From positions 1-64,000 of the forward strand of contig NZ_LVYV01000002.1 of assembly GCF_001618955.1 (NCBI RefSeq): a stretch of 64,000 bases of DNA. Reading direction: 5' to 3'. The stretch is from Tardiphaga robiniae. GTDB lineage: Bacteria > Pseudomonadota > Alphaproteobacteria > Rhizobiales > Xanthobacteraceae. The position numbers and the translations under genes are program-made. Positions 48,986 through 64,000 of this stretch are shown here, one piece after another (position 1 is the first letter of the stretch; the number at the start of each line of letters is the position of its first letter). Below the pieces are notes generated by a model. The model saw only the letters and a list, made by a program, of their open reading frames with translations. It made no database searches and was not told the DNA's origin.

Positions 48986-48992
48986 CTAATTC

Positions 48993-49769: not shown

Positions 49770-49785
49770 CTTGTTGCGTCCTGCA

Positions 49786-50760
49786 CTAGTAGAGGCCGGC
49801 AACCTTGGCGCGCTGGGCAACCAGTGCCAGAACGGAATCGATGGCCGGCGTCGGGATGCCGGTGAGGCGCCCCATCTCCTGCACCACGGTGACCAGTGGA
49901 TCGATCTCCATCGGCCGGCCGCGTTCCAGGTCCTGCAGCATCGATGTCTTGTGCGCGCCGACCTTGCGCGCGCCTTCGATACGGCGCTCGGCATCGACGC
50001 GAAAGCCGATACCGAAACTCTCGGCGATCGACTGGGCTTCCAGCATCATCGTCTTCGATAGTGCGCGCGTCGCCGGATCGGTACAGATCACATCCAGTGT
50101 CGCATGGGTGAGGGCGCTGATCGGATTGAAGCAGACATTGCCCCACAATTTCAGCCAGATCTCGTCGCGAATGCGATCGAGCACCGGCGCCTTCAATCCG
50201 GCCTTTTCGAACATCGCGGCCAGCCGTTCGACATCGGCGGTGCGTTCGCCCGATGGCTCGCCGAGCGGAAACTTGTCGCCATAGACATGCCGGATCACGC
50301 CGGGCGCTTCGATCTCGGTGGCGGGATAGACGATGCAGCCGATGGCGCGTGCGGCGCCGATTTCTTCCCACTGCCGTCCGCCGGGATCGACGCTTTCCAG
50401 CGCCGTGCCTTCGAACTGATTGCCGTGCCTGTGGAAGTACCAATAGGGAATGCCGTTCACCGCGGTGACAATGCGTGTTCTTGGTCCGAGCAGCGGCTGC
50501 ATCTGTTCGATCACGCCGGTGATCGAATGGGCCTTCAGGCAAATGATGACATAATCCTGCTCGCCGAGTTCTGCTGGATCGTCGGTGCAGGGGATATGCA
50601 CGATGCGTTCTTCTCCTGCTATCAGCAGCTTCAGTCCATGCGCGCGCATCGCCGCAAGATGCGCGCCGCGTGCGACAAGGCTGACATCGGCGCCAGCCCG
50701 TGCGAGCTGAACGCCGAGATAGCCGCCGATGGCGCCGGCGCCGTAGATGCAGATCTTCAT
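49786..50760 (-). CDS. 2-dehydropantoate 2-reductase (PanE/ApbA) family protein
   Basis: 324 residues. N-terminal NADPH fold KICIYGAGAIGGYLGVQLARAGADVSLVARG and the catalytic C-terminal domain with IWLKLWGNVCFNPISALTHAT (active Lys) and HKTSMLQDLERGRPMEIDPL (active Glu). The family includes ketopantoate reductase and, in Methylobacterium, an oxalyl-CoA reductase encoded by a panE paralogue (panE2). Here the gene is 112 bases downstream of the CBS gene at the edge of the oxalate cluster, with a terminator-like hairpin between, so both readings are possible. Confidence 0.85.
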   Translation of the reverse strand: MKICIYGAGAIGGYLGVQLARAGADVSLVARGAHLAAMRAHGLKLLIAGEERIVHIPCTDDPAELGEQDYVIICLKAHSITGVIEQMQPLLGPRTRIVTAVNGIPYWYFHRHGNQFEGTALESVDPGGRQWEEIGAARAIGCIVYPATEIEAPGVIRHVYGDKFPLGEPSGERTADVERLAAMFEKAGLKAPVLDRIRDEIWLKLWGNVCFNPISALTHATLDVICTDPATRALSKTMMLEAQSIAESFGIGFRVDAERRIEGARKVGAHKTSMLQDLERGRPMEIDPLVTVVQEMGRLTGIPTPAIDSVLALVAQRAKVAGLY

Positions 50761-50794: not shown

Positions 50795-50838
50795 AAAAGA
50801 ACTGGCATCACGGACCGCTGGCGGTCCGTGTCGATGCC
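50795..50838 (-). terminator. Terminator-like hairpin after the CBS gene
   Basis: Core stem CACGGACCGC/GCGGTCCGTG (50809-50830) with additional outer pairing GGCAT/ATGCC. On the minus strand it is followed by AGTTCTTTTGC. It lies 35 bases after the CBS stop and 35 bases before the PanE-like start; read-through is possible. Confidence 0.6.
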
Positions 50839-50872
50839 GGTATGAAACGCGAAGTGAGCTTGAGGCTAGGCC

Positions 50873-51304
50873 TCAGGCGACCGCTGCATGCGCTTGCGGT
50901 GCATCCTCATGGTCGAGCACCCTGCTGATGTCGCGGATGCTGATCACGCCGATCAGCGTGTGATCGTCGATGACCGGGACGTGCCGAATGTGATGCTTGT
51001 TCATCAGGTGGCGGACATGTTCGAGCGTGTCAGTCGAGTGGCAGGAAATCAATTCCTGGACCGAGATCATATCCGAGACCTTGCGATTGACGCCAGCGGC
51101 GCCGTGTTCGGCGATCGCGCGAACCACGTCGCGTTCGGAGAACATGCCGACCGCGGTGTTGCCCTCGGTGCGGCACACGTCCTTCACGACCAGTGCACTG
51201 ATATTGCCTGTCCGGAGCAACTGCGCCGCGATGGCGACAGTCTCGTTCATGCGGACAGTGGCGATACGGGTGCTCTTCCTACGCAGGATATCTCCGACTT
51301 GCAT
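50873..51304 (-). CDS. CBS-pair domain protein
   Basis: 143 residues: MQVGDILRRKSTRIATVRMNETVAIAAQLLRTGNISALVVKDV...VGMFSERDVVRAIAEHG and a second CBS with ISVQELISCHSTDTLEHVRHLMNKHHIRHVPVIDDHTLIGVISIRDISRVL. This is a stand-alone Bateman module, which normally binds adenosyl nucleotides (AMP, ATP, SAM). Cytosolic. It has its own promoter with the 17-bp operator of the oxalate cluster, so it belongs to that regulon. What it regulates is unknown; possible targets are the transporters or the acyl-CoA enzymes. Confidence 0.87.
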   Translation of the reverse strand: MQVGDILRRKSTRIATVRMNETVAIAAQLLRTGNISALVVKDVCRTEGNTAVGMFSERDVVRAIAEHGAAGVNRKVSDMISVQELISCHSTDTLEHVRHLMNKHHIRHVPVIDDHTLIGVISIRDISRVLDHEDAPQAHAAVA

Positions 51305-51354
51305 GGCAATAACCTCCCTTGGCTGATCGGCTGAGGATCGATCTTATCGGCGCA

Positions 51355-51383
51355 AGTTTGGTATACGGTATGCCAGTTGTCAA
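51355..51383 (-). promoter_or_regulatory. Promoter and operator of the CBS gene
   Basis: Read on the minus strand: TTGACA, two bases, the 17-bp inverted repeat TGGCATACCGTATACCA (51375-51359). The -10 is CAAACT after a 17-base spacer and shares its first two bases with the repeat's end. It lies 51 bases upstream of the start codon. A second, poor match (TGGTATGCCA) lies at about 51509 further upstream. Confidence 0.7.
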
Positions 51384-51528
51384 CGCAGAAACCAGGATAT
51401 CGAGGGGTGGGATCAAGAAAGAAAGTCAGTGTTTCTGACGTTTGTTTGCTGCATGGCGTGCATTTTCCGATGTGCTTCTAGCGGACTGGCGATATCCAGT
51501 CGGAGCTCTGGTATGCCAGTTGGGCATG

Positions 51529-51556
51529 AAAAAGAGGCGCACTCGCGTGCGCCCCT
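51529..51556 (-). terminator. Rho-independent terminator of the first OFA transporter gene
   Basis: On the minus strand the stem GGCGCAC, loop GCGA, GTGCGCC is followed by TCTTTTTC. It lies about 28 bases after the stop codon of the gene ending at 51582. Confidence 0.75.
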
Positions 51557-51581
51557 GAAATCTTGAACGAGCTTCGATTGA

Positions 51582-52892
51582 TCAGGCGGTCTTGGCGCTG
51601 TGCGCCGCGGCTTCCGGTACGGCAGGCTCGCTCCCCAGAATGAATGCACGTCGCATCGGCTTGATAACGAACAGAGCGAGCAACGCAGCCGTGGCATTGA
51701 GCGCAACGGCGATCACAAACACGGCCTGCCATCCATAGCTCGCTGCGATCAGGCTTGCGAGTGGTACCAACAATGCCGCCGTGCCCTTCGCGGTGTAGAG
51801 CATGCCGTTATTCGTCGCGGCGTATTTGGCGCCGAACGTATCGCCTGACGTTGCCGGGAACAGACTGTAGATCTCACCGAACACGCCGAAATAGACGGCC
51901 GTCGCCAGTACGAAGACGAGTGGGTTGTGGCCATAGGCCGACAGCGTCAGCAGCATCAGCGCGGCGGTGCCGAAGGCGATGAACATGGTGTGTTCGCGAC
52001 CGATCTGATCCGACAACCAACCGAAGAGCGGGCGGCCGAACCCGTCAAAGATGCGATCGAGCGAGATGGCGAAGGTCAGTGCTGCCATCTGGAAGCCGGC
52101 CAATGTCACCGGAGAATTCGCAATATTGTAGTCGTGCGCGATCGGCGCGATCTGCGCTGCAGTCATCAAACCACCGGCGGCGACCATCACGAAGACCAGA
52201 TACATGACCCAGAAGATCGGGCTGCGCAGCACTTGCGGCGGGGTGAAATCCGTCTTTGTCTGCGGCAGATTGAGTTGTTTCTTCGTCACCGGCACGGCTT
52301 GCCCAGGCGGACGCATGAAGAAGGCGAGCATGAAAACGATCACGCCCTGGCCGATGCCGAAGGTAAAGAAGGCATGTTGATAGCCGCTCTCGGCAATCAT
52401 ATGCGCGATCGGCACGACGGTGATCGCAGCGCCAGCGCCGAAGCCTGCCGCCGTGGCGCCCGCAGCGAGGCCGCGGCGATCGGGAAACCACTTCAGCGCG
52501 TTGCCGACGCAGGTGCCGTAGACCGAACCGGCGCCGATGCCACCGACGACGGCGCCGGCGTAGAGCATGACCAGCGAGTCTGCATAGGAGTTCAGCACCC
52601 AGGCGAGGCTGATCATGGCTCCGCCGAACATGATGACGGCACGGGGACCGTATTTGTCGACGAACCACGCTTCGACCGGTACCAGCCAGGTCTCGACGAC
52701 GACGAACAGGGTGAAGGCAAGCTGGATCGCGGCGCGACCCCAGTGATACTTGGCGTCGATCGGATCGACGAACAGCGTCCATCCGTATTGCAGATTGGCG
52801 ATCATCGCCATGCAGACGATGCCCATCACGAGTTGAATCCAGCGGAAGCTGCCGGGTGGGTTAGACGCGGTGGTGAAGTCTGGCTGAGCCAT
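51582..52892 (-). CDS. MFS transporter, oxalate/formate antiporter (OFA) family, copy 1
   Basis: 436 residues with about 12 membrane helices. Motifs shared with OxlT: ANLQYGWTLFVDPI (TM1), VYGTCVGNALKWFPDRRGLAAGATAAGFGAGA (TM4-5) and GMLYTAKGTAALLVPLASL with the Lys (about 366) that matches the substrate-binding Lys355 of OxlT; DRIFDGFGRPLFGWLSD is the motif-A repeat. It should exchange oxalate for formate, or import a related carboxylate, at the inner membrane. It has its own operator-bearing promoter and terminators on both sides. Confidence 0.88.
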   Translation of the reverse strand: MAQPDFTTASNPPGSFRWIQLVMGIVCMAMIANLQYGWTLFVDPIDAKYHWGRAAIQLAFTLFVVVETWLVPVEAWFVDKYGPRAVIMFGGAMISLAWVLNSYADSLVMLYAGAVVGGIGAGSVYGTCVGNALKWFPDRRGLAAGATAAGFGAGAAITVVPIAHMIAESGYQHAFFTFGIGQGVIVFMLAFFMRPPGQAVPVTKKQLNLPQTKTDFTPPQVLRSPIFWVMYLVFVMVAAGGLMTAAQIAPIAHDYNIANSPVTLAGFQMAALTFAISLDRIFDGFGRPLFGWLSDQIGREHTMFIAFGTAALMLLTLSAYGHNPLVFVLATAVYFGVFGEIYSLFPATSGDTFGAKYAATNNGMLYTAKGTAALLVPLASLIAASYGWQAVFVIAVALNATAALLALFVIKPMRRAFILGSEPAVPEAAAHSAKTA

Positions 52893-52977
52893 CGTGTTTC
52901 CTCCGATGCGCGCTTTTTCCCTTGCGGCGTGGTGTCGCTAAGGTTGTGGCGTATTGCCGCAGGCGTCGCTTGGTCGG

Positions 52978-53006
52978 AGACTGGTATATTATATTCCAAG
53001 ATGCAA
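52978..53006 (-). promoter_or_regulatory. Promoter and operator of the first OFA transporter gene
   Basis: Read on the minus strand: TTGCAT, two bases, TGGAATATAATATACCA (52998-52982), with -10 CAGTCT after a 17-base spacer. Same geometry as the CBS and second OFA promoters. It lies about 86 bases upstream of the start codon. The -10 is the weakest of the set. Confidence 0.6.
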
Positions 53007-53072
53007 GGTGGTCTTGGCCGATTGTTGCGTGAAGGCGATCACGCCTTGGCGAGCAGCGCATCGCCCATGCAA

Positions 53073-53100
53073 AACGCGCTCAGCCGGGGCTGAGCGCGTT
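53073..53100 (-). terminator. Terminator of the second OFA transporter gene
   Basis: 13-bp perfect stem AACGCGCTCAGCC/GGCTGAGCGCGTT around GG, 24 bases after the stop codon at 53124. On the minus strand TTTTGC follows; on the plus strand GTTTTC, so it may work in both directions. Confidence 0.75.
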
Positions 53101-53123
53101 GTTTTCTTGAGGCTTTTTGCGTT

Positions 53124-54413
53124 TTAGGTCGCAAGCGCCTTGCTGACGACGACCTTACGCCAAGGCTTCAGCACCGCAATGGCGAGCAGTGAAGCCAGGA
53201 TATTGGCGCCGGCTGCAATCAGAAACACGCTGTCCCACGTGCCCGATGACTGCTGCATGTAGTTCGCGACCGGCACCAGAAGTGCTGCCGTACCCTTTGC
53301 CGTATAGAGCAGGCCGGCATTGGTCGTTGCGAACTTGGAGCCGAAGGTGTCGGTGCAGGTCGATGGGAAGAGCGAGTAGATCTCACCCCAGGCGAAGAAC
53401 ACAAAGCCCGACAACAGCACGAACCACAGCGGATCGTGACCCCACATATACAGCGCCCAGATGCCGACGCCTTCCATGCCGAAGGCGATGAACATCGTGT
53501 TCTCGCGGCCGATCATATCGGAAATCCAGCCGAAGAACGGACGTGTCAGTCCGTTGAGTACGCGGTCGATGGTGGCTGCGAAGGTGACCGCCGTCATCGT
53601 CATGGCCATTAGCGTGACGGGGACGTTGTCGATCTTCCAGTCGGCCGCAATCGGCTTCAGGTTGGCCGTCACCATCAGGCCGCCGGCACCGACGATCACG
53701 AACATGAAGTACATCAGCCAGAAGATCGGATGGCGGATGACTTCTGTCGGCGCGTAGTTGCGGCGGGTCTGGATCACGTTGGCGTTCTGCGTGACCGCCG
53801 GTACCTGTCCAGCCTTTGGCGCGAACAGGAAGAAGGAGAGGATCACGATGATGATGCCTTGCCCGAGACCGAAATACAGAAATGCGGTCTGGAAGCCGGA
53901 ATCCTGGATCATGGCCTGGATCGGCGCGACCGTGAGGGCGGAGCCTGCACCAAAGCCTGCAGCGGTGATGCCAGCCGCGAGGCCGCGCTTGTCAGGAAAC
54001 CACTTCAGGGCATTGCCGACGCAGGTACCGTAGACGCCGCCAGCGCCGATGCCCGCAACGATCATGCCGAGATAGAAGCCGTTGAGCGTTTCCGCCTGTG
54101 CATTGATCGCCCAGCCGATGCCGCAGAGGATGCCGCCGATAAGGACGACGAGCTTCGGGCCGTATTTATCGACGAACCATCCTTCGATCGGCACCAGCCA
54201 GGTCTCGAACAGAACGAAGAGGGTGAAGGCCCACTGGATCGACGCACGATCCCAGCCAAACTTCTTCTGGATGTCGGGGACGAAGAAGGTCCAGCCGTAT
54301 TGATAGTTGGCGATCATGACCATCGCGCCAACGCCGATGGCGAGTTGTGTCCAGCGGTAGGTATCGCTGACACGTACGGCAGCTGGCGCCGCCCCGTGAA
54401 CTGCATCAGTCAT
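53124..54413 (-). CDS. oxlT: MFS transporter, oxalate/formate antiporter (OFA) family, copy 2
   Basis: 429 residues with about 12 membrane helices. It is a paralogue of the downstream gene and shares ANYQYGWTFFVPDI, VYGTCVGNALKWFPDKRGLAAGITAAGFGAGSALTV, LNGLTRPFFGWISDMIGRENTMFIAF and GLLYTAKGTAALLVPVANY, with the Lys (about 371) equivalent to OxlT Lys355. An oxalate:formate exchange would supply Frc with oxalate and remove the formate it makes. Its own promoter carries the 17-bp operator. Symbol given by family only; direct function is inferred. Confidence 0.88.
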   Translation of the reverse strand: MTDAVHGAAPAAVRVSDTYRWTQLAIGVGAMVMIANYQYGWTFFVPDIQKKFGWDRASIQWAFTLFVLFETWLVPIEGWFVDKYGPKLVVLIGGILCGIGWAINAQAETLNGFYLGMIVAGIGAGGVYGTCVGNALKWFPDKRGLAAGITAAGFGAGSALTVAPIQAMIQDSGFQTAFLYFGLGQGIIIVILSFFLFAPKAGQVPAVTQNANVIQTRRNYAPTEVIRHPIFWLMYFMFVIVGAGGLMVTANLKPIAADWKIDNVPVTLMAMTMTAVTFAATIDRVLNGLTRPFFGWISDMIGRENTMFIAFGMEGVGIWALYMWGHDPLWFVLLSGFVFFAWGEIYSLFPSTCTDTFGSKFATTNAGLLYTAKGTAALLVPVANYMQQSSGTWDSVFLIAAGANILASLLAIAVLKPWRKVVVSKALAT

Positions 54414-54463
54414 AGTTCCTCCTAAAGCGCTGTTCTATTGAGAGCTCGACAGCTGCGAAGGAT

Positions 54464-54492
54464 AGTTTGGTATATGATATGCCAACTAACAA
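54464..54492 (-). promoter_or_regulatory. Promoter and operator of the second OFA transporter gene
   Basis: Read on the minus strand: TTGTTA, two bases, TGGCATATCATATACCA (54484-54468), then -10 CAAACT after a 17-base spacer, identical to the CBS promoter's -10. It lies 51 bases upstream of the start codon, the same distance as in the CBS promoter. Confidence 0.7.
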
Positions 54493-54565
54493 GCGAAATC
54501 TTGCCAATTTGTCGCTGCAAGTTTCGCATGACTGAATGCTGTACTGCGATACTACAAGACAGCAC

Positions 54566-54593
54566 AAAGCCGGCGGTCCAGACCGCCGGCTTT
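54566..54593. terminator. Bidirectional terminator after tctA
   Basis: 13-bp perfect stem AAAGCCGGCGGTC/GACCGCCGGCTTT with a 2-base loop, 30 bases after the tctA stop on the minus strand. Flanked by short T-runs on both strands. Confidence 0.75.
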
Positions 54594-54622
54594 TGGGTTT
54601 GAACAGTTATTTGTATCGTTAC

Positions 54623-56128
54623 TTACGCTGCTGCAGTGCGAGTACGCAGCCGGGTGAAGCCGTTCTGGATCACCGACCAGAACAGCGCGATCAGGCCGAG
54701 GATCATGATGCTGCTGACCAGCGTGTTCGAGAAGAAGATCCCGAGCGATCCCTGCGACCCCAGCAGCGACTGACGGAAGGCTTCCTCGGCCTTGTCGCCG
54801 AGCACGATAGCGAGCACCAGCGGGGCGAGGGGATAATTACACTTCTTCAGCGCATAACCGATGATGCCAAACACCAGCATCATCACCACGTCGAAGGTGG
54901 AGTTGTGCACGGAGTAGGCGCCGATCGCACAGAGCACCAGGATCAGCGGTGCGATGATGCTGAACGGCACCCGCAGGATCGCGGCGAACACCGGCACGCA
55001 GGTCAGCACGATGATCAGACCGACGAGATTGCCGAGATACATCGAGGCAATCAGGCCCCAGACGAATTCCTTCTGCTCGACGAACAGCATCGGTCCGGGC
55101 TGCAGGCCCCAGATCAGCAGACCACCAAGAAGCACGGCGGCAGTTGGCGAACCGGGGACGCCGAGCGAAAGCATCGGCAGCAGGGCCGCGGTGCCGGCGG
55201 CGTGTGCGGCCGTTTCCGGAGCGATGACGCCTTCGATCTCGCCCTTGCCGAAGTTATTGCCGTTCTTGGAGACGCGTTTGGCGATGCCGTAACTCATAAA
55301 GGACGCGGGTGTCGCGCCTGCGGGCGTAACACCCATCCAGCAGCCGATGACGCAGGAGCGCAGTGACGTCATCCAGTATTGCGGCAGACTCATCCAGGTG
55401 CGGAGCACGACGCGCAGATCGATCTTCGCCTTGCCGCCCTGGAAGCGCAGGCCTTCTTCCATGGTGAGGAAGATTTCGCCGAGGCCGAACAGGCCGATGA
55501 CGGCGATCAGGAAGTCGAAGCCATTGAGGAGTTCGGTCGAGCCGAACGTGAGTCGTAGTTGTCCCGTGATGGAATCGAGGCCGACTGCGGCGAGGGCAAA
55601 ACCGATCATCATCGCCGCAATGGTCTTGAAAGGTGGCTCCTTACTCAGCCCGACGAAACTGCAGAATGCCAGGAAATAGACAGCGAATTTCTCCGCGGGC
55701 CCGAATCGTAAGGCGAAGCCTGCGACCAGCGGCGCGACCAGGGTGATCATGACGACGGCGAACAGTGCGCCAACAAAAGAGGAGGTGAAGGCGGCGGTGA
55801 GTGCTTCGGCAGCCTTGCCCTGCTGCGCCATCGGATAGCCGTCGAATGTCGTGGCCACCGACCATGGCTCTCCGGGGATGTTGAACAGAATCGAGGTGAT
55901 CGCGCCCCCGAACAATGCGCCCCAATAGATGCAGGACAGCATGATGATGGCCGATGTCGGCGGCATGCTGAAGGTGAGGGGCAGCAAGATCGCGACACCG
56001 TTGGCGCCACCAAGGCCGGGCAGCACGCCGATGATGACGCCGAGCACGATGCCCAGGACCATCACTGCGATGTTGAAAGGCTGCAACGCGACGGCGAAGC
56101 CCTGGAACAGATTAGCAATTTCTTCCAT
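54623..56128 (-). CDS. tctA: Tripartite tricarboxylate transporter, large permease TctA
   Basis: 501 residues with about 12 membrane helices. It shows the TctA signature GVLPGLGGANGVAILLPLTFSMPPTSAIIMLSCIYWGALFGGAITSILFNIPGEPWSVATTFDGYPMAQQGKA compressed in the first 110 residues and AAHAAGTAALLPMLSLGVPGSPTAAVLLGG in the middle. It forms the transport path for a carboxylate captured by the TctC protein. Last gene of a tctCBA operon inside the oxalate cluster. The substrate is not shown by sequence. Confidence 0.92.
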   Translation of the reverse strand: MEEIANLFQGFAVALQPFNIAVMVLGIVLGVIIGVLPGLGGANGVAILLPLTFSMPPTSAIIMLSCIYWGALFGGAITSILFNIPGEPWSVATTFDGYPMAQQGKAAEALTAAFTSSFVGALFAVVMITLVAPLVAGFALRFGPAEKFAVYFLAFCSFVGLSKEPPFKTIAAMMIGFALAAVGLDSITGQLRLTFGSTELLNGFDFLIAVIGLFGLGEIFLTMEEGLRFQGGKAKIDLRVVLRTWMSLPQYWMTSLRSCVIGCWMGVTPAGATPASFMSYGIAKRVSKNGNNFGKGEIEGVIAPETAAHAAGTAALLPMLSLGVPGSPTAAVLLGGLLIWGLQPGPMLFVEQKEFVWGLIASMYLGNLVGLIIVLTCVPVFAAILRVPFSIIAPLILVLCAIGAYSVHNSTFDVVMMLVFGIIGYALKKCNYPLAPLVLAIVLGDKAEEAFRQSLLGSQGSLGIFFSNTLVSSIMILGLIALFWSVIQNGFTRLRTRTAAA

Positions 56129-56185
56129 GTCGAGTAGTCCTCAGAAAGAGACCGGCAGACGCAACGGAATTAGAGATCGCGGAAA

Positions 56186-56683
56186 TTAGAGACCAAGCAG
56201 ATCCTCGAGCGGCCCTTTGGGGAGCGGCACGAGGAACCAGCGTTCGAAGATCAGGTAGGTTACGACGGGCATGCCGAGAGAGATGGCCGCGACGATGGGC
56301 CAATTATATTTTCCGAGCCAGCGCATGAACCATGCGATGAAGATCAGCGACGATACGTAGAGGCCGATAAACGGCAGGACGCCGACATAGATGCCGGTGG
56401 GAATGACGACGCTGAAGACCTGGCGCAACTGGCCCCATTCGGCGAACAGGCTGCCGTTGTCCTCGCGCAGTGTATTCCAGAGATTGATCAGACTGGAGAT
56501 GATGATGAACAGCCCGATATAGAACGGGAAGAACCCGGCTTTCGGACCCTCCGCGCCCCAATTGATACCGGCCTTGATGCTGCCATAGACGACGATGGCG
56601 CCGAACAGGCCGATGACAGTGGTGACGCCGGCTTCGACGGATTTGTGAGACGGGCCTGCGGCGCGCGTGTGCTGAGTGGTCAT
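56186..56683 (-). CDS. tctB: Tripartite tricarboxylate transporter, small permease TctB
   Basis: 165 residues, four hydrophobic helices (VTTVIGLFGAIVVYGSIKAG; FFPFYIGLFIIISSLINLW; VVIPTGIYVGVLPFIGLYVSSLIFIAWFM; IVAAISLGMPVVTYLIFERWFLVPLPKG). The closing FERWFxVPLPKGPLE is typical of TctB. Partner of TctA in the membrane complex. Located between tctC and tctA, with 57 bases to tctA and 90 to tctC. Confidence 0.88.
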   Translation of the reverse strand: MTTQHTRAAGPSHKSVEAGVTTVIGLFGAIVVYGSIKAGINWGAEGPKAGFFPFYIGLFIIISSLINLWNTLREDNGSLFAEWGQLRQVFSVVIPTGIYVGVLPFIGLYVSSLIFIAWFMRWLGKYNWPIVAAISLGMPVVTYLIFERWFLVPLPKGPLEDLLGL

Positions 56684-56728
56684 GAAAAGCTCTGTGTGAG
56701 AGTTCTGCGTCGGTCAGCGTGCGATGTG

Positions 56729-56759
56729 CGCCGGACCTGATGTGCGATCAGGTCCGGCG
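56729..56759 (-). other. Intercistronic hairpin between tctC and tctB
   Basis: Perfect 13-bp stem CGCCGGACCTGAT/ATCAGGTCCGGCG with a 5-base loop, 15 bases after the tctC stop, with no T-run on the minus strand. In binding-protein operons such hairpins protect the upstream message, giving excess binding protein over permease. Confidence 0.7.
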
Positions 56760-56773
56760 TCGTTGCGCCAGCG

Positions 56774-57787
56774 TCAGTTGCCTTGCGCGAGGAAGCCCGC
56801 TTCCTTCATCAGCGTCTCGTGGCGCTTCTCTTCGGTGCCAACCCAGCCGGCATATTCGCTGCCGGTCATGAAGGTCGTATTGAAGGCGCCGCTCTTCATC
56901 AGGTCCTGCCACTCGGGTGTCGCGCGGACCTTCTTGAACAACTCGACATAATAGTCGATCTGATCCTTCGTCGCTTTCGGCCCCATGAAGATGCCGCGCA
57001 GCATCACATATTCGATGTCGAGCCCCTGCGACTTGCAGGTTGGAATGTCCTTCCAGCCCTTGCCGTCGGCGACCTGTTCGTCATAGGCCATCGGTTTGCT
57101 GTCGAAGACGCAGAGCGGACGCACCTTGCCGCCGCGCCACTGCGCAACAGCCTCGATCGGATTGTTCACGGTTGAATCGACGTGCTGACCGACGAGCTGC
57201 ACGGCGACTTCACCGCCGCCCTTGTAGGGGATGTAAGTGAACTTGCTGCCGATCGCCTTCTCCAGCGCGACCGTGATGATCTGGTCTTCCTGCTTCGAGC
57301 CCGTGCCGCCCATCTTGATCGTGCCGGCCGGTGCGGCCTTCACGGCGTCGATATATTCCTTCACCGTCTTGTACGGTTTGTCGGCATTTACCCACAGCAC
57401 GAACTCGTCGAGCGCCAGCATCGCGACCGGGGTGAGATCCTTCCAGTTGAAGGGAATGCCGGTGGCGAGCGGTGTCGTGAACAGGTTTGACAACGTGATG
57501 ATGATCTTGTGCGGATTGTTGTTCGCCGACTTCACGTCGAGGAAACCTTCACCGCCCGCGCCACCCGACTTGTTGATGACGACAAGCGGCTGCTTCATCA
57601 GACTGTGCTTGGTGATGATGCCCTGAATGGTGCGCGCCATCTGATCGGCGCCGCCGCCGGTGCCCGCGGGAACGATCAATTCGACGGGGCGCGTCGGCTC
57701 CCATGCAGCAGATGCCGGGAGAGACGCTCCCAGGCAGAGAATGGATGCAGCGGCGGCCAGCGTGAGACATGAACCTAGGTGTTTCAT
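56774..57787 (-). CDS. tctC: Tripartite tricarboxylate transporter substrate-binding protein TctC
   Basis: 337 residues. Signal peptide ending CLGASLPASAAWEP, then PVELIVPAGTGGGADQMARTIQGI, LVVINKSGGAGGEGFLDVKSA, GTIKMGGTGSKQEDQIITVALEKAIGSKFTYIPYKGGGEVAVQLVGQHVDSTVNNPIEAV. Diverged from the two other Bug proteins in this window. It delivers a carboxylate to TctAB. First gene of tctCBA, expressed from a promoter about 290 bases upstream that carries the cluster's operator. Confidence 0.9.
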   Translation of the reverse strand: MKHLGSCLTLAAAASILCLGASLPASAAWEPTRPVELIVPAGTGGGADQMARTIQGIITKHSLMKQPLVVINKSGGAGGEGFLDVKSANNNPHKIIITLSNLFTTPLATGIPFNWKDLTPVAMLALDEFVLWVNADKPYKTVKEYIDAVKAAPAGTIKMGGTGSKQEDQIITVALEKAIGSKFTYIPYKGGGEVAVQLVGQHVDSTVNNPIEAVAQWRGGKVRPLCVFDSKPMAYDEQVADGKGWKDIPTCKSQGLDIEYVMLRGIFMGPKATKDQIDYYVELFKKVRATPEWQDLMKSGAFNTTFMTGSEYAGWVGTEEKRHETLMKEAGFLAQGN

Positions 57788-58083
57788 TGTTTCTCTCCCA
57801 TTCGTTTTGATAGCGTCGATCGTTCGTCGACTTTGAAATCGTCAGTGCGTGGTCGGGTCTTCCTTCGAATGTCCTGACTGCAGATGTTCAAACGCGCCCT
57901 TGCGCGCGCCATATGCGCACGTCAGACTGTCGAGCAACGAAGCGGCTCGCCTGCAAAAAGGATGGGTGGATCTGGATCGCTTTGTCATGGCGCGTACGGC
58001 ATTGCGTGCCCGCGAGGGCAGCGCAGCCTTTGTCCTCCCCAGGTATGCTTTCTGTTCAAACGTGAAGCATTACCCGTTCGCGC
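57788..58083 (-). other. Long untranslated leader of tctCBA, no supported gene
   Basis: Between the operator promoter at 58084-58112 and the tctC start. A 48-codon frame (57988-57842, minus) starts MTKRSRSTHPFC but has no ribosome-binding site. A small stem TGCCC-GCGA-GGGCA is present. The leader may carry post-transcriptional control, or a second promoter nearer tctC may exist. Confidence 0.4.
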
Positions 58084-58112
58084 ATTTTGGTATGCGATAT
58101 GCCAAGCGGCAA
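58084..58112 (-). promoter_or_regulatory. tctC: Promoter and operator upstream of tctCBA
   Basis: Read on the minus strand: TTGCCG, two bases, TGGCATATCGCATACCA (58104-58088), -10 CAAAAT after a 17-base spacer. Same geometry as the OFA and CBS promoters, but about 300 bases from the next recognised gene on this strand. Confidence 0.65.
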
Positions 58113-58191
58113 GCGATTAGAGCCGTTAAAAGCCGGGGAGGCTGAAATGTCGCAGGGAGCGCGAGACGTCGCTGCGATGCAACTACACAAA

Positions 58192-58220
58192 CAAAAAAAC
58201 GGCCCCGGAAATCCGGGGCC
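58192..58220 (-). terminator. Rho-independent terminator of the 45-aa gene
   Basis: On the minus strand GGCCCCGGA/TCCGGGGCC (9-bp stem) is followed by GTTTTTTTG. It lies about 67 bases after the stop of the small gene and upstream of the tct promoter, isolating the two. Confidence 0.85.
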
Positions 58221-58286
58221 AGTCGTCGGGAGGAACGCAGAGAATTTTGCGCGGGCCGGCCGCGCAAAAGTAGTGAAGTCGCAGCC

Positions 58287-58424
58287 TTACAGGCCGAAGC
58301 GGGGCAGGTCGCCGTTGCGGGCCGAGATGCGTGCGCTGGCCATCAGCGCGCGATCGAGCGAGGCCATGAAGCGAGCGAAGAAGCTGGTGGACGTGGTGAG
58401 GCCGAGAGAAGCAGTCTTCGACAT
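58287..58424 (-). CDS. 45-aa small protein of the oxalate regulon
   Basis: The frame from the ATG at 58424 encodes SKTASLGLTTSTSFFARFMA, continues SLDRALMASARISA and ends RNGDLPRFGL. AAGGATC lies 7 bases upstream of the ATG. An operator-bearing promoter 55 bases further up and a strong terminator behind it make this a complete stand-alone gene. The amphipathic, basic helix and ending -DLPRFGL loosely resemble DUF1127/YjiS-type small proteins. Function unknown; it could tune a transporter or enzyme of the pathway. Confidence 0.7.
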   Translation of the reverse strand: MSKTASLGLTTSTSFFARFMASLDRALMASARISARNGDLPRFGL

Positions 58425-58478
58425 GATCTGATCCTTTGCTGGAGGCCGCCGCGTCTTGGCGCCTCATCATCTGGGATC

Positions 58479-58507
58479 AATTTACGTATACCAGATGCCA
58501 AGGACAA
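58479..58507 (-). promoter_or_regulatory. Promoter and operator of the 45-aa gene
   Basis: Read on the minus strand: TTGTCC, one base, TGGCATCTGGTATACGT (58500-58484), with -10 TAAATT after a 17-base spacer. The right half of the repeat is less well conserved here than in the other sites, but the -10 is the best of the set. Confidence 0.65.
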
Positions 58508-58600
58508 TTGTCTTGTTTGCATGGCAGCATGAGGATTCTGCAGTGCGATATGGATCGATTTGATTTTCTTATTAAAGTTCCGCATTGGCCACCGTAAATG

Positions 58601-58627
58601 AAAAAAGGCCGCCAATCGGCGGCCTTT
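58601..58627. terminator. Terminator of the oxc-frc transcript
   Basis: AAAGGCCGCC/GGCGGCCTTT, 10-bp stem with a 4-base loop. On the minus strand a run of six T follows, 32 bases after the frc stop codon. Confidence 0.85.
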
Positions 58628-58658
58628 CGCATCTAATTATATGAAATCGCTTCCGAAA

Positions 58659-59936
58659 TTACTCAGCTGCGACCTTCCGCGGCGGATCGAGTGCGCCGGA
58701 GTCGTGGATTTCGGCCACCTGATGATCGCTGAAGCCCAGCACTTGCCTGAGGATTTCGTCGGTATGTTCGCCGAGCAGCGGCGAGCGCGTCACTTCAGTG
58801 GGGCTGGCCGATAGCTTAATCGGATTACCAACCGACAGATACTTGCCGCGCTCGGGGTGATCGACCTCGACCACGGTGCCGGTGGCGCGGAGCGACTGGT
58901 CTTCGGCCAATTCCTTCATGGACAGGATCGGGCCGCACGGGATGTCATCCTTGTTGAGGATTTCCATCGCCTCGAACTTGGTCTTGGTCATCGTCCACTG
59001 TTCGATGCGCGCGAAGATCGCGTTGAGCTTGGGCAGGCGCACCGCCGGCTTGGCATAGGCCGGGTCGGTCTTCCAGGTCGGTTCGCCGATCACGTCGCAG
59101 ATCTTCTCCCACACCGGCGCCTGAGTGATGAAGTAGATGTAAGCGTTCGGGTCGGTTTCCCAGCCCTTGCACTTCAGGATGCGACCGGGCTGGCCACCGC
59201 CGCTGTCGTTGCCGGCACGCGGCACGGCATCGCCGAACGGAATGCCTTCGCCGAACTGGCTGTATTCCTTGAGCGGGCCATGGGCGAGGCGCTGCTGGTC
59301 GCGCAGCTTGACGCGCGCGAGATTCAGCACGCCGTCCTGCATCGCGGCGGTGACCTTCTGGCCCTTGCCGGTCTGCGTGCGCTGATACAGCGCGGTAACG
59401 ATGCCGAGTGCGAGATGCAGACCAGTGCCGCTATCGCCGATCTGTGCGCCGGTGACGAGCGGCAGGCCGTCGCGGAAGCCGGTGGTGGAAGCTGCGCCGC
59501 CGGTGCACTGCGCGACGTTCTCATAGACCTTGCAGTCCTCATAGGGACCAGGACCAAACCCCTTGATCGAGGCGACGATCATCTTCGGGTTGATCTGCTG
59601 AATCTTCTCGAACGGGAAGCCCATGCGGTCGAGCACGCCGGGTCCGAAGTTCTCGACAAGAACATCGCACTCTTTCATCAGCGCGGTGAGGACTTCCTTG
59701 CCCTTCGGGTTCTTGGTGTCGAGGGTGATCGAACGCTTGTTGTGGTTCAGCATGGTGAAATACAGGCTGTCCACATTCGGCACGTCCTGTAGCTGGCCGC
59801 GGGTGATGTCGCCAACGCCGGGCCGTTCGACCTTGATCACATCGGCGCCGAACCATGCCAGCAACTGCGTGCAGGTTGGGCCGGATTGAACGTGGGTGAA
59901 GTCCAGAATGCGAACGCCTTTGAGCGCTTGTGTCAT
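58659..59936 (-). CDS. frc: Formyl-CoA:oxalate CoA-transferase
   Basis: 425 residues from the ATG at 59936 (GGGAG upstream). CoA-transferase family [79 protein letters not shown] with the catalytic Asp near residue 165 (Asp169 in Oxalobacter Frc), and [13 protein letters not shown]. It moves CoA from formyl-CoA to oxalate, giving oxalyl-CoA and formate. Works with Oxc in a cycle that decarboxylates oxalate. Second gene of the likely gntR-oxc-frc operon. Confidence 0.95.
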
Positions 59937-59978
59937 TGTTTTGCTCCCGTAACTATTTTTTGCCGGCTCGGCACATGG

Positions 59979-60007
59979 AGAAAAGGGGCGGGGCCTCACG
60001 ACCCCGC
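59979..60007 (-). other. Weak hairpin between oxc and frc
   Basis: GCGGGG (59988-59993) pairs with CCCCGC (60002-60007); on the minus strand CCCCTTTTCTCC follows. It might act as a partial terminator, lowering frc relative to oxc. Confidence 0.35.
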
Positions 60008-60018
60008 ATGGTCAGGTG

Positions 60019-61758
60019 TTATTTCTTCTTGCTCAGAACGCTCTGCGGATTGAGGTTGCCGATGCGGCCGCTCTCGCTGCCGGCCGCCGGATCGATCACC
60101 GCATTGATGAGCGTCGGCTTGCCGGAATCCATCGCCGCATTGACGGCGCGCTTGAGTTCGTCGGGCGAGGTCGCGTTGGTGCCGACGCCGCCGAAGGCTT
60201 CCATCATCTTGTCGTAGCGCGAACCCTTGACGAAGACCGTCGGTGCCACGTCGGAGCCGCCGGTCGGATTGACGTCGGTGCCGCGATAGATGCCGTCATT
60301 GTTGAAGACGACGATGCAGACCGGCAGATTGTAGCGACAGATCGTCTCCACCTCCATGCCGGAGAAACCGAACGCGCTGTCACCTTCGATCGCGAGGACA
60401 GGCTTGCCGGTTTCGACGGCCGCGGCGATGCAATAACCCATGCCGATGCCCATGATGCCCCAGGTGCCGACATCGATGCGCTTGCGCGGCTGATACATGT
60501 CAACGATGCCGCGGGCGAGGTCGAGCGTGTTGGCGCCTTCATTGACGAGCATCGCGTCGGGACGTTCGGCGATGATGGTGCGGAGAACGCCGAGCGCGCC
60601 GTGATAATCCATCGGAGAGTTGTTGTTCATCAGGCGCGGCGCCATCTTGGCGACGTTCTCTTCGCGCTTCTTGGTGACCGCATTGGCCCAGTCCACCGGC
60701 GCCTTCTGCCAGCCCTTGCCCATGCCATCGAGTAGAGCGGCGACGCAGGAGCCGATGTCACCGACGACAGGTGCGACGATCTCGACGTTGGAGTCCATTT
60801 CCTTCGGCTCGATGTCGATCTGGATGAACTTCTTCGGTGCATCACCCCAGCTCTTGCCCTTGCCGTGCGACAGCAGCCAGTTCAGGCGTGCGCCGATCAG
60901 CATGACGACATCGCTGTCTTTCAGGACCGTCGAACGTGCAGCACCCGCACACTGCGGATGGGTGTCAGGCAGAAGACCCTTGGCCATGCTCATCGGCAGG
61001 AACGGAATGCCGGAGGTTTCGACCAGCGCCTTCACCGCGTCGTCAGCCTGTGCATAAGCGGCGCCCTTGCCGAGGATGATCAGCGGCTTCTTCGCCGATT
61101 TCAGCACGTCGAGCGCGCGCTTGATCGAGTCCGGTGCAGGGATCTGCGCCGGTGCAGCATCGATCACCTTGACCAGCGACTTCTTGCCGGCGTCGGCATT
61201 CATCACCTGACCGAACAGCTTGGCGGGCAGATCGAGATAGACGCCGCCCGGACGGCCGGACACCGCAGCGCGGATCGCGCGCGCGAGACCGATGCCGATG
61301 TCCGCCGCATGCAGCACGCGGAACGCGGCCTTACACAGCGGCTTGGCGATCGCGAGCTGATCCATTTCTTCATAGTCGCCCTGCTGCAGGTCGACGATCT
61401 CGCGCTCGGATGAGCCGGAGATCAGGATCATCGGGAAGCAGTTGGTGGTGGCATGGGCCAGCGCCGTAAGGCCGTTGAGGAAGCCGGGTGCCGACACGGT
61501 CAGGCAGACGCCAGGCTTTTTGGTGAGATAGCCGGCGATCGATGCGGCATAGCCGGCGGCCTGTTCGTGACGGAACGACAGCACCCGGATGCCCTCGGCC
61601 TGCGCCATGCGGCCGAAGTCGGTAATTGGAATGCCCGGCACGCCATAGATTGTGTTGAGGCCATTGAGCTTGAGAGCATCGATGATCAGATGGAAGCCAT
61701 CGGTCAATTCCTGCTCGGCGGCTGCGTTGGTATCGATGCTCTGGACTACTGCGGACAT
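60019..61758 (-). CDS. oxc: Oxalyl-CoA decarboxylase
   Basis: 579 residues from the ATG at 61758 (GGGAGAG upstream). Thiamine-diphosphate enzyme: the conserved Glu in [19 protein letters not shown], and [29 protein letters not shown] (about 463), the GDx-NN Mg/TPP motif. Other Oxc landmarks are [13 protein letters not shown] and [16 protein letters not shown]. It converts oxalyl-CoA to formyl-CoA and CO2. Full length for the family. Sits between gntR (85 bases upstream) and frc (82 bases downstream). Confidence 0.96.
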
Positions 61759-61843
61759 CCCGCTCTCCCTGACTTTTCTTGTGACGGTTGGTCGTTGCTC
61801 AATTGGACGTGGTGCGGAGTAGTGAACCGTCGCGAGACGGCGC

Positions 61844-62575
61844 TTACGTAAACAATTCCTGGCCGTGGGCTTCGACATAAGAAGCCAGACCCAGTGTGTG
61901 ATCGCGTGCGCGCTTCTCGGCGAGCTCGGTATTGCGCTCCTCGAGCGCTTCGATGATGGCCAGATGCTCGGGCAGGGACGTCGCGGTACGGTCGGTGCGT
62001 CCGATCGTCAACTGACGATAGCCACGCACATGCAGCAGAATATCGTTGGTCATATCGACCAGTACCGGCGACTCGCTGAGCGAGATCAGCGCCTGGTGGA
62101 AAGCGATATTCGCTTTCGAATATTCCTCAACGTGGTCCTGCGGCAGACGGTCCTTGTTGAAGTCCTTGAAGAAGTCGCGCAGCGCCGAGATATCTTTCTT
62201 GCGTGCGGTAGTCGTGATCAGACGCGCGGCCATGCTTTCCAGCGCCGCCCAGGCGCGGATCATGTCGACGATCTCGACCTTGGTCTTTCTGACAACGACG
62301 ATGCCGCGGCGTGGCACGGTCTTTACGAAGCCATCCTGCTCCAGCATCGCAATGGCTTCGCGGATAGGTGTGCGGCTGACACCAAGTCGTTCCGACAGCG
62401 CGCGCTCGTCAAGCATCACCGGATCGGGCGAGGTGTAGATGTCCATCTTAAGAATGGCTTCTTTCAAGGCTTCATAGGCCTTGGTCTTGAAGCTGGTCTC
62501 CGGTGCAATCCGAACGATCGCGATATCGGCTTCAGACATGACGGACGGCGCCTTGGTTTGTTTTCGCGTGGGCAT
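61844..62575 (-). CDS. GntR-family regulator (FadR/FCD type) of the oxalate cluster
   Basis: 243 residues. Winged helix in the first 85 residues ([62 protein letters not shown]) and an FCD domain ([19 protein letters not shown]-like, with the metal-site residues in [17 protein letters not shown]). First gene of the likely gntR-oxc-frc operon, so it probably controls its own synthesis. The 17-bp TGGCAT..ATGCCA-type operators across this cluster fit the half-sites expected for FadR-subfamily GntR proteins. The ligand may be oxalate, oxalyl-CoA or formyl-CoA. Confidence 0.88.
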
Positions 62576-62626
62576 GAATCATCTCCAGTCGAGATGTCCT
62601 ACCACAGAAATAACGTCAAGAATTTT

Positions 62627-62652
62627 TGGCATACCAGATGCCAGCATGTCAA
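62627..62652 (-). promoter_or_regulatory. Operator and promoter of gntR-oxc-frc
   Basis: Read on the minus strand: TTGACA (62652-62647), three bases, then TGGCATCTGGTATGCCA (62643-62627). The -10 would lie at the end of the repeat (CAAAAA or nearby). It is 52 bases from the gntR start, as expected for autoregulation. Confidence 0.65.
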
Positions 62653-62691
62653 GATGACAGCTATTTCAGCAATTTTGCGCTGCAACGCGGC

Positions 62692-62724
62692 TTGACAATC
62701 AAGTTTCTGGCATACCAAATGCCA
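62692..62724 (+). promoter_or_regulatory. Operator and promoter of the acyl-CoA synthetase gene
   Basis: TTGACA (62692-62697), then TGGCATACCAAATGCCA (62708-62724). A -10 with 17-base spacing is CCAAAT inside the repeat. It differs from the other promoters in having the operator over the -10 rather than filling the spacer. It lies 38 bases from the ATG. Confidence 0.65.
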
Positions 62725-62762
62725 TCAATCCGTCTATTGGAAAAGACGTGAAGGAGGAAGCC

Positions 62763-64000
62763 ATGTCCCAATCGAATCTTGCCGTCAAAGAAGCAACACC
62801 ATCGGCGAAACAGGCCGTCCGCAAAGTTCTCGATGCGGTCAAAGCCGACAAGCGCACCAGCCTGACCGCCCCCGAGGGCAAGCTTGTGTGTGACGCCTAC
62901 GGCATTCCCGTGCCGAAGGAAGGCGTGGCCACCTCAGCCGCTGACGCTGCCAAGATGGCAAGCGGCATGGGCTTCCCGGTCGTGATGAAGATCGTCTCGC
63001 CGGACATTCTCCACAAGACTGAAGCGGGCGGCGTCATCGTCGGCGTCAAGACCGCCGAAGACGCGCAGAAAGCTTACGACACTATTCTGGCCAATGCCAA
63101 GAAGTACAAGGCCGACGCCAAGATAGAAGGTATCCAGGTTCAGCAAATGCTGATGGGCGGCACCGAAGTGATCATCGGTTCGATCACCGATGGTTCGTTC
63201 GGCAAGCTGGTGGCTTTCGGCCTCGGCGGCGTGCTGGTCGAAGTGCTGAAGGATGTGACATTCCGTCTCGCCCCCGCGACCAATGAAGATGCGCTGTCGA
63301 TGCTCGATGGCATCCAGGCCGCCGAGATGCTGCATGGCGTGCGCGGCGGCGATCCCGCCAACCGCGAAGCGCTGGCCGACATCATCGTCAAAGTATCGCA
63401 GCTTGTCAGCGATTTCCCGGAGATGGTCGAACTCGATCTCAACCCTGTCTTCGCCACCAAGAAGGATGCGATCGCCGCCGACGTGCGCATCGTCGTCGAT
63501 TTCGACTACCAACCGCGCCCGGCGCCGCGCTCCAACGCCGAAATCGTCACGGCGATGAACCGCATCATGATGCCGAAGGCCGTCGCTGTGATCGGCGCCT
63601 CCGCCGAAGATGGCAAGATCGGCAATTCGGTGATGAAGAACCTCATCAACGGCGGCTACAAGGGCGACATCTACCCGATCCATCCCAAGGCGGAAGAGAT
63701 CATGGGCCGCAAAGCCTATAAGAGCGTCAAGGATGTTCCGGGTGTGATCGATACCGCGGTATTCGCGATTCCCGCCAAGTTCGTTGCAGGTGCGCTGATC
63801 GAGTGCGGCGAGAAGAAAATTCCGGGCGCGGTGCTGATCCCGTCGGGCTTTGCCGAAGCCAATGAGCCTGCGCTGCAGGAAGAGATCGTCGAAATCGGCA
63901 AGAAATACGACGTCCGTCTGATGGGGCCGAATATCTATGGCTTCTATTATACGCCGGCCAATCTCTGCGCGACTTTCTGTACAGCCTATGACGTGAAGGG
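62763..64000 (+). CDS. ADP-forming acyl-CoA synthetase (acetate-CoA ligase family), cut by the window end
   Basis: The first 412 codons are visible, open to the window edge. Start ATG at 62763 with AAGGAGG upstream. The N-terminal ATP-grasp domain (GKLVCDAYGIPVPKEG...GFPVVMKIVSPDILHKTEAGGVIVGV, GGVLVEVLKD, ELDLNPVF) is followed by a CoA-binding Rossmann domain (PKAVAVIGASAEDGKIGNSVMKNLINGGYKGDIYPIHP). This is the reordered form of NDP-forming acyl-CoA ligases. Divergent from gntR and carrying the same operator, so it may make the first oxalyl-CoA or formyl-CoA; substrate unproven. Confidence 0.85.
   Translation, partial: MSQSNLAVKEATPSAKQAVRKVLDAVKADKRTSLTAPEGKLVCDAYGIPVPKEGVATSAADAAKMASGMGFPVVMKIVSPDILHKTEAGGVIVGVKTAEDAQKAYDTILANAKKYKADAKIEGIQVQQMLMGGTEVIIGSITDGSFGKLVAFGLGGVLVEVLKDVTFRLAPATNEDALSMLDGIQAAEMLHGVRGGDPANREALADIIVKVSQLVSDFPEMVELDLNPVFATKKDAIAADVRIVVDFDYQPRPAPRSNAEIVTAMNRIMMPKAVAVIGASAEDGKIGNSVMKNLINGGYKGDIYPIHPKAEEIMGRKAYKSVKDVPGVIDTAVFAIPAKFVAGALIECGEKKIPGAVLIPSGFAEANEPALQEEIVEIGKKYDVRLMGPNIYGFYYTPANLCATFCTAYDVK

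Follow-up and report, generated by a model that had tools for sequence, protein, structure and literature searches.

A 17-bp inverted repeat as putative operator of a probable local GntR repressor in an oxalate regulon of Tardiphaga that very probably reaches sucCD

Plants and soil are rich in oxalate, which Bradyrhizobium and its kin use; oxalotrophy in Bradyrhizobium is said to be the subject of Koch 2014. Among the described systems, the oxalate/acid operon yfdXWUVE of Escherichia coli carries homologues of frc (yfdW) and oxc (yfdU) and is likewise regulated, but by EvgA, an acid-response two-component regulator, and not by a GntR protein; as described in the passages of PMC3720670, it holds neither sucCD nor an oxalyl-CoA reductase homologue. 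The same oxc and frc are found in close relatives of the organism studied here, as in the Bradyrhizobium pair bll3156-bll3157 treated in PMC5996035. According to the passages of that paper, Frc and Oxc were higher in one cell fraction of arabinose-grown B. diazoefficiens, growth on arabinose being a condition thought to yield oxalate, and Oxc in the membrane fraction was similar on both carbon sources; the first observation counts for an oxalate regulon and the second against it. The term GntR occurs 0 times in PMC5996035, whose passages name neither an operator nor a link to sucCD. In the titles and abstract starts among the matches listed, a GntR regulator of oxalate genes was not named.

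The window, that is, the whole stretch of 64,000 nucleotides analysed, comes from a soil bacterium akin to Bradyrhizobium. It contains an oxalate degradation locus of the oxc-frc type, in which the equivalogs for oxc, frc and the oxalate/formate antiporters all score above their cut-offs. On the minus strand are located oxc (oxalyl-CoA decarboxylase, 60019..61758; TIGR03254, 1022.8 bits, cut-off 739.4), whose start at 61758 was picked by homology over a longer reading frame from 61878, frc (formyl-CoA:oxalate CoA-transferase, 58659..59942; TIGR03253, 746 bits, cut-off 504.2), the tripartite carboxylate transporter genes tctCBA (54623..57787), the two oxalate/formate antiporter genes, OFA copy 2 (53124..54413; TIGR04259, 653.7, cut-off 335) and OFA copy 1 (51582..52892; TIGR04259, 642.2, cut-off 335), and the gene of a CBS-domain protein (50873..51304). 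The next gene behind CBS, panE (49786..50760, minus strand), encodes a panE-family reductase that matches the 2-dehydropantoate 2-reductase subfamily with 546.9 bits and is a candidate oxalyl-CoA reductase; in the locus L063, the operator lies directly in front of it. A gene of the fumarylacetoacetate-hydrolase family (FAH; 48993..49823, minus strand) follows panE, likewise in several relatives, and on the plus strand an ADP-forming acyl-CoA ligase gene (acs; 62748..63998) extends past the window end. A search of Rfam over 48000-64000 (E up to 0.1) gave a single match, STnc40 at 51530-51601, at the end of OFA copy 1, which with 34.9 bits stays below the gathering score of 45 and was taken as a terminator-like hairpin; the tct leader gave no match in that search.

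The likely binder of the operator is the product of gntR (61844..62575, minus strand), an FCD-type GntR regulator with an N-terminal winged helix (PF00392, 46.9 bits, cut-off 27) and a C-terminal FCD domain (PF07729, 79.1 bits, cut-off 24.3). The metal-site ligands of FCD-type GntR proteins are D/N, H, H and H, and the FadR subgroup has seven C-terminal helices where the VanR subgroup has six. Residues N156, H160, H204 and H226, invariant among 20 aligned sequences and aligned to the D/H/H/H of two solved FCD proteins (7u5q, 7xp0), conform to the ligand pattern and mark a putative metal site. The structure model (pLDDT 80.8, pTM 0.72) has 6 helices from residue 99 onward, a count that favours the VanR over the FadR subgroup. 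GntR-family entries head its PDB fold list, the nearest being VanR Atu1419, a Brucella GntR and PmiR, and E. coli FadR appears first at rank 41. From the proposal of the first-pass annotation that a local FadR-type GntR is the binder, the local protein is retained as candidate by linkage; the FadR label is the part that these nearest structures correct. None of the named GntR models of NCBIfam (PhnR, NanR, CsiR, LldR, GlcC, PdhR, FadR) is passed, the best being PhnR with 94.7 bits against a cut-off of 271.5. The top fold match, VanR/Atu1419 from Agrobacterium fabrum (an FCD GntR; PDB 6z74, 6za3), is a repressor according to the entry titles and was solved with fortuitous citrate and with palindromic DNA. 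It is 24% identical to the protein described here and differs in that here the operator has 17 bp with outer TGG/CCA halves and the target pathway is that of oxalate. PmiR of Pseudomonas aeruginosa (7xp0, 7xp1), also a GntR protein, is 25% identical over the fold alignment, and its D/H/H/H is aligned to N156/H160/H204/H226.

All seven operator sequences listed by the first-pass annotation were found in the window at their positions and orientations, and six of them (51359, 52982, 54468, 58088, 62627 and 62708) fit TGGNATN5ATNCCA (TGGNATNNNNNATNCCA) exactly. Searching the 64-kb window for TGGCATATCATATACCA with up to 3 mismatches yielded 8 matches, which fall on 6 places since two places are hit on both strands; 100 dinucleotide shuffles gave an expectation of 0.05 matches, and none reached 8. 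A scoring matrix was built from 240 operator sites of relatives, Tardiphaga relatives of the window included; as all of these sites are exact consensus, any change at the fixed positions is penalised. With it, the six exact sites score 24-29 and the next-best match in the window, the site of a gene for 45 amino acids, scores 3.9. The operators fall into two classes, those with an internal third TGG half-site (gntR and acyl-CoA ligase) and those with two half-sites (e.g. CBS and OFA copy 2).

At CBS, both OFA genes and tct, all on the minus strand, the operator begins 2 nt past the -35 hexamer and, if a 17-bp spacer is read, shares bases 1 and 2 of the -10. The operator of CBS-panE-FAH, TGGCATACCGTATACCA (51359..51375; two-half-site class, matrix 27.1, 23 CBS sites in relatives), lies between TTGACA (51378-51383; the TTG position recurs in 21 of the 23 distinct CBS sites) and a putative -10, CAAACT (51355..51360), which shares two bases with it. 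OFA copy 1 has TGGAATATAATATACCA (52982..52998; matrix 24.0) between TTGCAT (53001-53006) and CAGTCT (52978-52983), the TTG position being kept in 18/18 distinct sites of relatives, and OFA copy 2 has TGGCATATCATATACCA (54468..54484; matrix 29.2) between TTGTTA (54487-54492; kept in 27/29) and CAAACT (54464-54469). The tctCBA operator, TGGCATATCGCATACCA (58088..58104; matrix 25.4), is placed between TTGCCG (58107-58112; kept in 13/13) and CAAAAT (58084-58089), about 300 nt before tctC, a distance of 265-336 nt in 13 relatives. Over these four target classes, 79 of 83 distinct sites of relatives have a TTG at a distance of exactly 8 nt ahead of the operator, and in 77 of the 83 the sixth -10 base is T. 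The arrangement differs at the two internal-TGG promoters. The gntR-oxc-frc operator, TGGCATCTGGTATGCCA (62627..62643, minus strand; matrix 24.5), has TTGACA (62647-62652) 9 nt upstream, as in 79/79 distinct sites of relatives, and the acyl-CoA ligase operator, read on the other strand (TGGCATACCAAATGCCA, 62708..62724, plus; matrix 28.0), has TTGACA (62692-62697) 16 nt upstream, as in 65/78, so that it overlaps the -10 region and does not fill the spacer. The earlier description of an operator filling a 17-base spacer holds at CBS, OFA and tct for the spacer itself, with the addition that the -10 is overlapped too, and it does not extend to gntR and acs. The fixed position of the -35 relative to the operator supports that a bound protein would block RNA polymerase.

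The remaining site, in front of the gene for a conserved small protein of 45 aa (58287..58424, minus strand; no NCBIfam match), is TGGCATCTGGTATACGT (58484..58500, minus strand), with a -35 TTGTCC (58502-58507) and a -10 TAAATT (58479-58484) whose first base is the last T of the operator. It has 2 mismatches to TGGNATNNNNNATNCCA, a level at which the window has 22 matches versus 18.65 expected, so that the window by itself gives it no significance and it resembles chance. However, TGGYATNTGGYATRCVT, with T at position 17, is present in 56/56 upstream stretches of orthologues (52 of them distinct; the set includes that of the window and is limited to orthologues whose alignment starts at residue 1 and for which 200 bp upstream were available). 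This conservation speaks against the chance origin suggested by the matrix score and mismatch level, and the site was therefore accepted as a variant operator.

In named relatives, gntR is preceded by two operators within 400 bp in 80/80 loci, and 243 of 247 exact sites lie no more than 450 bp before gntR, acs, OFA1, OFA2, CBS or tctC; the reversed pattern used as control occurs 0 times in 1.53 Mb. Among distant gntR homologues (46-57% identity), an operator-like site scoring at least 13 is close before gntR in 9 of 16 loci and absent in the other 7. The organism's own genome has 10 exact matches (2 for the reversed control) and 48 places with at most one mismatch to TGGYATN5ATRCCA (control, 14), a scan blind to variants that deviate as much as the 45-aa site. 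Seven of the 48 score at least 24, six in the oxalate locus and one before sucCD, the genes of succinyl-CoA synthetase elsewhere on the genome; the rest score 17.0 and lower. Among these near-matches, then, unrelated promoters do not score equally, and the promoters concerned lead to the curated equivalogs oxc, frc and two oxalate/formate antiporters, in agreement with the first-pass view that one operator defines an oxalate regulon. That view named the seven window promoters, which are retained; sequence comparison indicates that the regulon very probably goes beyond them, to sucCD. Rejected as targets in the own genome were C34:26969 (17.0, flanked by an XRE-type gene and one resembling serine hydrolases), C53:285034 (8.4, overlapping the start of an aldehyde-dehydrogenase-like ORF), and, by score, C45:89372 (4.5) and C53:305819 (-0.7).

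The sucCD site is thus the only place outside the locus that scores like the locus operators among the 48 near-matches. Of 70 genomes that have a single sucC together with a close gntR (a set including G182, 80% complete, where gntR was not found), 66 carry a site at the sucC promoter; it is absent from G005, G114, G188 and G195, and has one mismatch in G154. It was found in 0/21 genomes lacking a close gntR and in 0/12 where the gntR locus lacks an intact oxc (11 loci inspected, the G108 locus apart; absence of oxc refers to the gntR locus, and oxc was checked in part of the genomes of one sucC sample). For g20, a genus, the site is present in the single gntR-bearing member sampled and missing from the four read of five sampled without gntR. 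From the 60-genome sample, G180 (sucC not found) and G192 (5' end missing) were dropped from the sucC count; G138 and G024, in both sucC samples, were counted once, and the sucC upstream stretch of G067 has only 161 bp. Genomes with a G number take their genus names from contig coordinates that they have in common with named records, and these names are therefore presumptive. The Fisher tests ignore the shared ancestry of the genomes. Genomes with a second sucCD have the operator at the housekeeping copy in 0/11 cases. In two of the Bradyrhizobium group the operator or an operator-like site stands at the second copy, and in nine other genomes the second sucCD adjoins oxalate genes.

We consider it highly probable that the repeat is the operator of the local FCD-type GntR, acting as a repressor relieved by oxalate or a derivative and regulating the locus and sucCD; what we infer is that GntR binds, that it represses, how the genes group into operons, which effector acts and what the sucCD site is for. 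In this reading, GntR dimers would occupy the operator when oxalate is lacking, sitting both in the gap that separates -35 from -10 and on these elements, and would exclude RNA polymerase from gntR-oxc-frc, acyl-CoA ligase, the 45-aa gene, tctCBA, both antiporters and CBS-panE-FAH. The repressor would be released once its FCD pocket, with the putative N/H/H/H metal site, takes up oxalate or one of its derivatives, for example oxalyl-CoA. With sucCD under the same GntR, succinyl-CoA synthetase would be raised together with oxalate use, probably to provide succinyl-CoA as CoA donor once the reductase drains oxalyl-CoA and formyl-CoA is not regenerated. The introduction passage of PMC12188714 states that succinyl-CoA, with sucAB and sucCD as source, can replace formyl-CoA as CoA donor in oxalate activation, a biochemical statement only, and the passages of that paper do not name a shared operator or regulator. 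Against this explanation counts that the related CoA-transferases YfdE and UctC gave no reaction with succinyl-CoA and oxalate, as reported in the passages of PMC3720670.

It would be strange for a TCA gene to be repressed in this way unless basal expression came from a further promoter, e.g. from mdh. The cost of repressing such an enzyme without oxalate, together with a sucC operator that begins about 67-76 nt before the start codon at a promoter whose elements are hard to make out by eye, the -10 being poor, could suggest that GntR acts as activator or dual regulator at some promoters, notably sucCD. We regard this as improbable, given that elsewhere the operator lies over the spacer or the -10, a position from which a bound protein would be expected to obstruct polymerase. 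Slightly less improbable, though still unlikely, is that the sucC site does not belong to the oxalate regulon and is a promoter feature of another kind, retained by shared ancestry: the sequences round it are alike in the Bradyrhizobium group, whose 54/56 are not 56 independent events. Yet the 17 bp stay constant while their surroundings, compared by eye, are unlike one another in Tardiphaga, the Bradyrhizobium group and G135, and both the presence of an operator or operator-like site at the second sucCD and not at the housekeeping copy in two Bradyrhizobium-group genomes and the second sucCD kept beside oxalate genes in nine others argue against mere inheritance. That another FCD/GntR paralogue binds the operator is very unlikely; the genome does hold 15 GntR-family matches, the local one included, but the nearest of the 14 others is just 33% identical, the operator pair accompanies gntR in all 80 named loci, and the sucC operator is missing in all 21 genomes read without a close gntR.

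A local GntR regulon with repression by the neighbouring regulator, as preferred here, is of a known kind, and the link to sucCD is the surprise. The operator displays the whole oxalate gene set together, adds a likely oxalyl-CoA reductase, and hints how oxalate may get CoA when formyl-CoA is not regenerated; the GntR and promoter pair is a possible part for an oxalate biosensor. Taking a wider view, to which we lean by a small degree, an oxalate repressor would have captured a TCA enzyme, with a lone sucCD under the oxalate operator in Tardiphaga/Bradyrhizobium and a second sucCD inside the regulon in other lineages. Succinyl-CoA synthetase would then be the CoA-charging step of oxalate assimilation, freeing the oxalyl-CoA reductase branch from formyl-CoA, and the two operator classes would give regulator/ligase genes and transporters responses of graded strength. 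Enzyme duplication and promoter rewiring of a single copy look like alternative solutions, of which sucCD would be a clear case.

The seven operator sequences that the first-pass annotation had placed at the promoters of the oxalate locus are borne out by the window sequence. Six of them match TGGNATNNNNNATNCCA exactly and the operator cluster, with eight matches at up to three mismatches against 0.05 expected, lies far above chance; the site of the 45-aa gene carries two mismatches and has no significance by window statistics alone. With a matrix built from 240 exact operator sites of relatives, the six sites score 24.0–29.2, followed in the window by the 45-aa site (3.9) and then by matches of 1.8 and 1.3. 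The genome containing the window (6.36 Mb) holds ten exact operator matches, and 48 places lie within one mismatch of TGGYATN5ATRCCA (14 for the reversed control). Seven of these near-matches score at least 24, namely the six window sites and a site at C1:928989 that starts 73 nt before sucC, behind mdh. Since the next-best near-match scores 17.0, the matrix does not, within the reach of this one-mismatch scan, match many unrelated promoters, the outcome named beforehand as speaking against a regulon.

Conservation was followed in the best 80 named loci around close gntR relatives, the window protein sharing 100% identity, across 243 residues, with its counterpart in Tardiphaga robiniae LMG 26467 (L136). 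These loci hold 247 exact operator sites, 243 of them no more than 450 bp ahead of gntR, acs, OFA1, OFA2, CBS or tctC and the other four without assignment, and all 80 have two sites within 400 bp upstream of gntR. The reversed pattern gave no match in the 1.53 Mb of these loci, a lenient control because it contains TA steps, which are likely rarer here.

The proposal that the operator fills the spacer between the −35 and −10 elements holds for CBS, OFA1, OFA2 and tct, with a correction. At these promoters 79 of 83 distinct sites have TTG exactly 8 nt ahead of the operator, and 77 of 83 have the final T of the −10 (CANNNT, read at 17 bp spacing); hence the operator begins at the third spacer base, fills the rest of the spacer and extends over two bases of the −10, its first and second. 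The distinct sites number 74 at gntR and 75 at acs, or 79 and 78 when counted with longer flanks. At gntR, TTGACA is found 9 nt before the operator (79/79), and at acs 16 nt before it (65/78), so that there the operator overlaps the −10. From this arrangement, the natural reading is that a bound operator would block RNA polymerase sterically. The two operators of the gntR-acs gap (62627–62724) have a spacing of 81 bp in 61 of 80 loci and of 79–82 bp in 78, unlike the operator-to-acs distance, which ranges from −30 to 190 with homology-based starts; this constancy could reflect packing of the divergent promoters or else cooperative binding. Between the tct operator and tctC runs a leader of about 300 nt (57788–58087; 265–336 nt in 13 relatives) without Rfam match.

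The operators fall into two classes. All 74 distinct gntR sites have TGG at positions 8–10, and all 75 acs sites have CCA there when read toward acs; a middle triplet of that kind occurs in only one of the 83 CBS, OFA and tct sites. It is also present in the 45-aa sites, through the pattern common to all of them, and in most Bradyrhizobium-group sucC sites (TGGTATATGGTATGCCA), the Tardiphaga sucC site being without it. Middle-triplet sites contain an overlapping 10-bp palindrome, TGGYATRCCA, within the 17-bp one, and thus three half-sites.

Upstream of the 45-aa gene, TGGYATNTGGYATRCVT is found in 56/56 stretches from orthologues (52 distinct; window included). Position 17 is T in this variant, versus A in the full operator, and a TANATT-like −10 begins with this T; the promoter therefore appears to have given up operator symmetry in exchange for a better −10. 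A second conserved element, approximately TGCTGC(C/T)ATGCAAAC, lies just upstream of the −35 (58511–58530, minus strand) in most of the 52 distinct promoters, and some relatives, e.g. loci L183, L192 and L143, have an additional operator-like sequence about 153–156 nt before the gene. The protein (58287–58424) has an RNGDLPxFGL-like end and no NCBIfam match, and is present in 40 of the 80 loci, some of which are incomplete at their ends.

Domain matches identify the window regulator as an FCD-type GntR. The nearest folds to its AlphaFold model (pLDDT 80.8) are VanR Atu1419, a Brucella GntR and PmiR. Residues N156, H160, H204 and H226, which we take to be the FCD metal ligands, are invariant in 20 aligned sequences, and oxalate would be a fitting ligand since it is a strong metal chelator. 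Among 16 loci around more distant gntR homologues (46–57% identity), 14 adjoin oxc and nine (L221, L223, L225, L226, L227, L228, L229, L233, L235) have an operator-like site scoring at least 13 close before gntR; the sites of L222, L230 and L232 are weak (3 to 7), and L220, L224, L231 and L234 have none above 2 there.

The oxc, frc and two antiporter products score above equivalog cut-offs. A match to Rfam STnc40 below gathering score at the end of OFA1 (51530–51601, minus strand) is probably a terminator hairpin. The CBS promoter leads toward panE as well, whose family presumably includes panE2. In PMC12686821, panE2 is used as an oxalyl-CoA reductase. In locus L063 an operator stands directly before panE, and in L058 (genome G050) only two short pieces of oxc are left between gntR and frc, which suggests loss of the decarboxylase with retention of panE. 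In L046 the tctC matches are split by about 0.9 kb, and L050 has a second, partial frc some 1.6 kb behind the complete gene; insertions or partial duplication are possible.

The one-operator oxalate regulon stands, both as observation and as interpretation, with its geometry and extent corrected. A local GntR regulon is of a familiar kind; a literature search found no oxalate assignment of such a regulon in the window's family. The extension concerns sucC, whose promoters were read in 60 family genomes and a further 60 of genus g25 (inferred to be Bradyrhizobium), two genomes being in both. The operator precedes sucC in 54 of 56 single-copy g25 genomes with a readable 5′ region, one with a mismatch and one in an 80% complete genome in which gntR was not found; elsewhere the counts are 7/7 in genus g1, 4/4 in four more g25 genomes, 1/1 in G135 and 0/2 in G005 and G114, in total 66 of 70 single-copy genomes. 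A second sucC(D) lies near oxalate genes in nine family genomes, and two g25 genomes have a second sucC preceded by operator or operator-like sites (G163, scores 23 and 26; G200, 16). In these 11 genomes the housekeeping sucC has no operator (0/11). Eight of them have the second sucCD immediately behind an operator or behind a transporter gene that an operator leads. Of the other three, G065 has it after tctA, with no exact operator found ahead of the tct genes, G095 has more than 3 kb in between, and the G112 contig stops short. In G106 and G139 the sole sucCD lies within an OFA2-acs-sucCD-gntR row behind operators. The sucC operator is absent from all 12 genomes without intact oxc at the gntR locus (a locus seen in 11 of them) and from all 21 without close gntR, including four siblings in G135's own genus.

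The genomes behind all these sucC counts have common ancestry and do not give independent events, but the sucC operator pattern has shifted in step across several lineages. According to PMC12188714, succinyl-CoA made through sucAB and sucCD can stand in for formyl-CoA when oxalate is activated, whereas in PMC3720670 YfdE and UctC did not react with succinyl-CoA, which speaks against such replacement. In the proposed mechanism, sucCD would recharge CoA for oxalate while the reductase branch uses up oxalyl-CoA. It is this sucCD pattern that specialists would not have expected.
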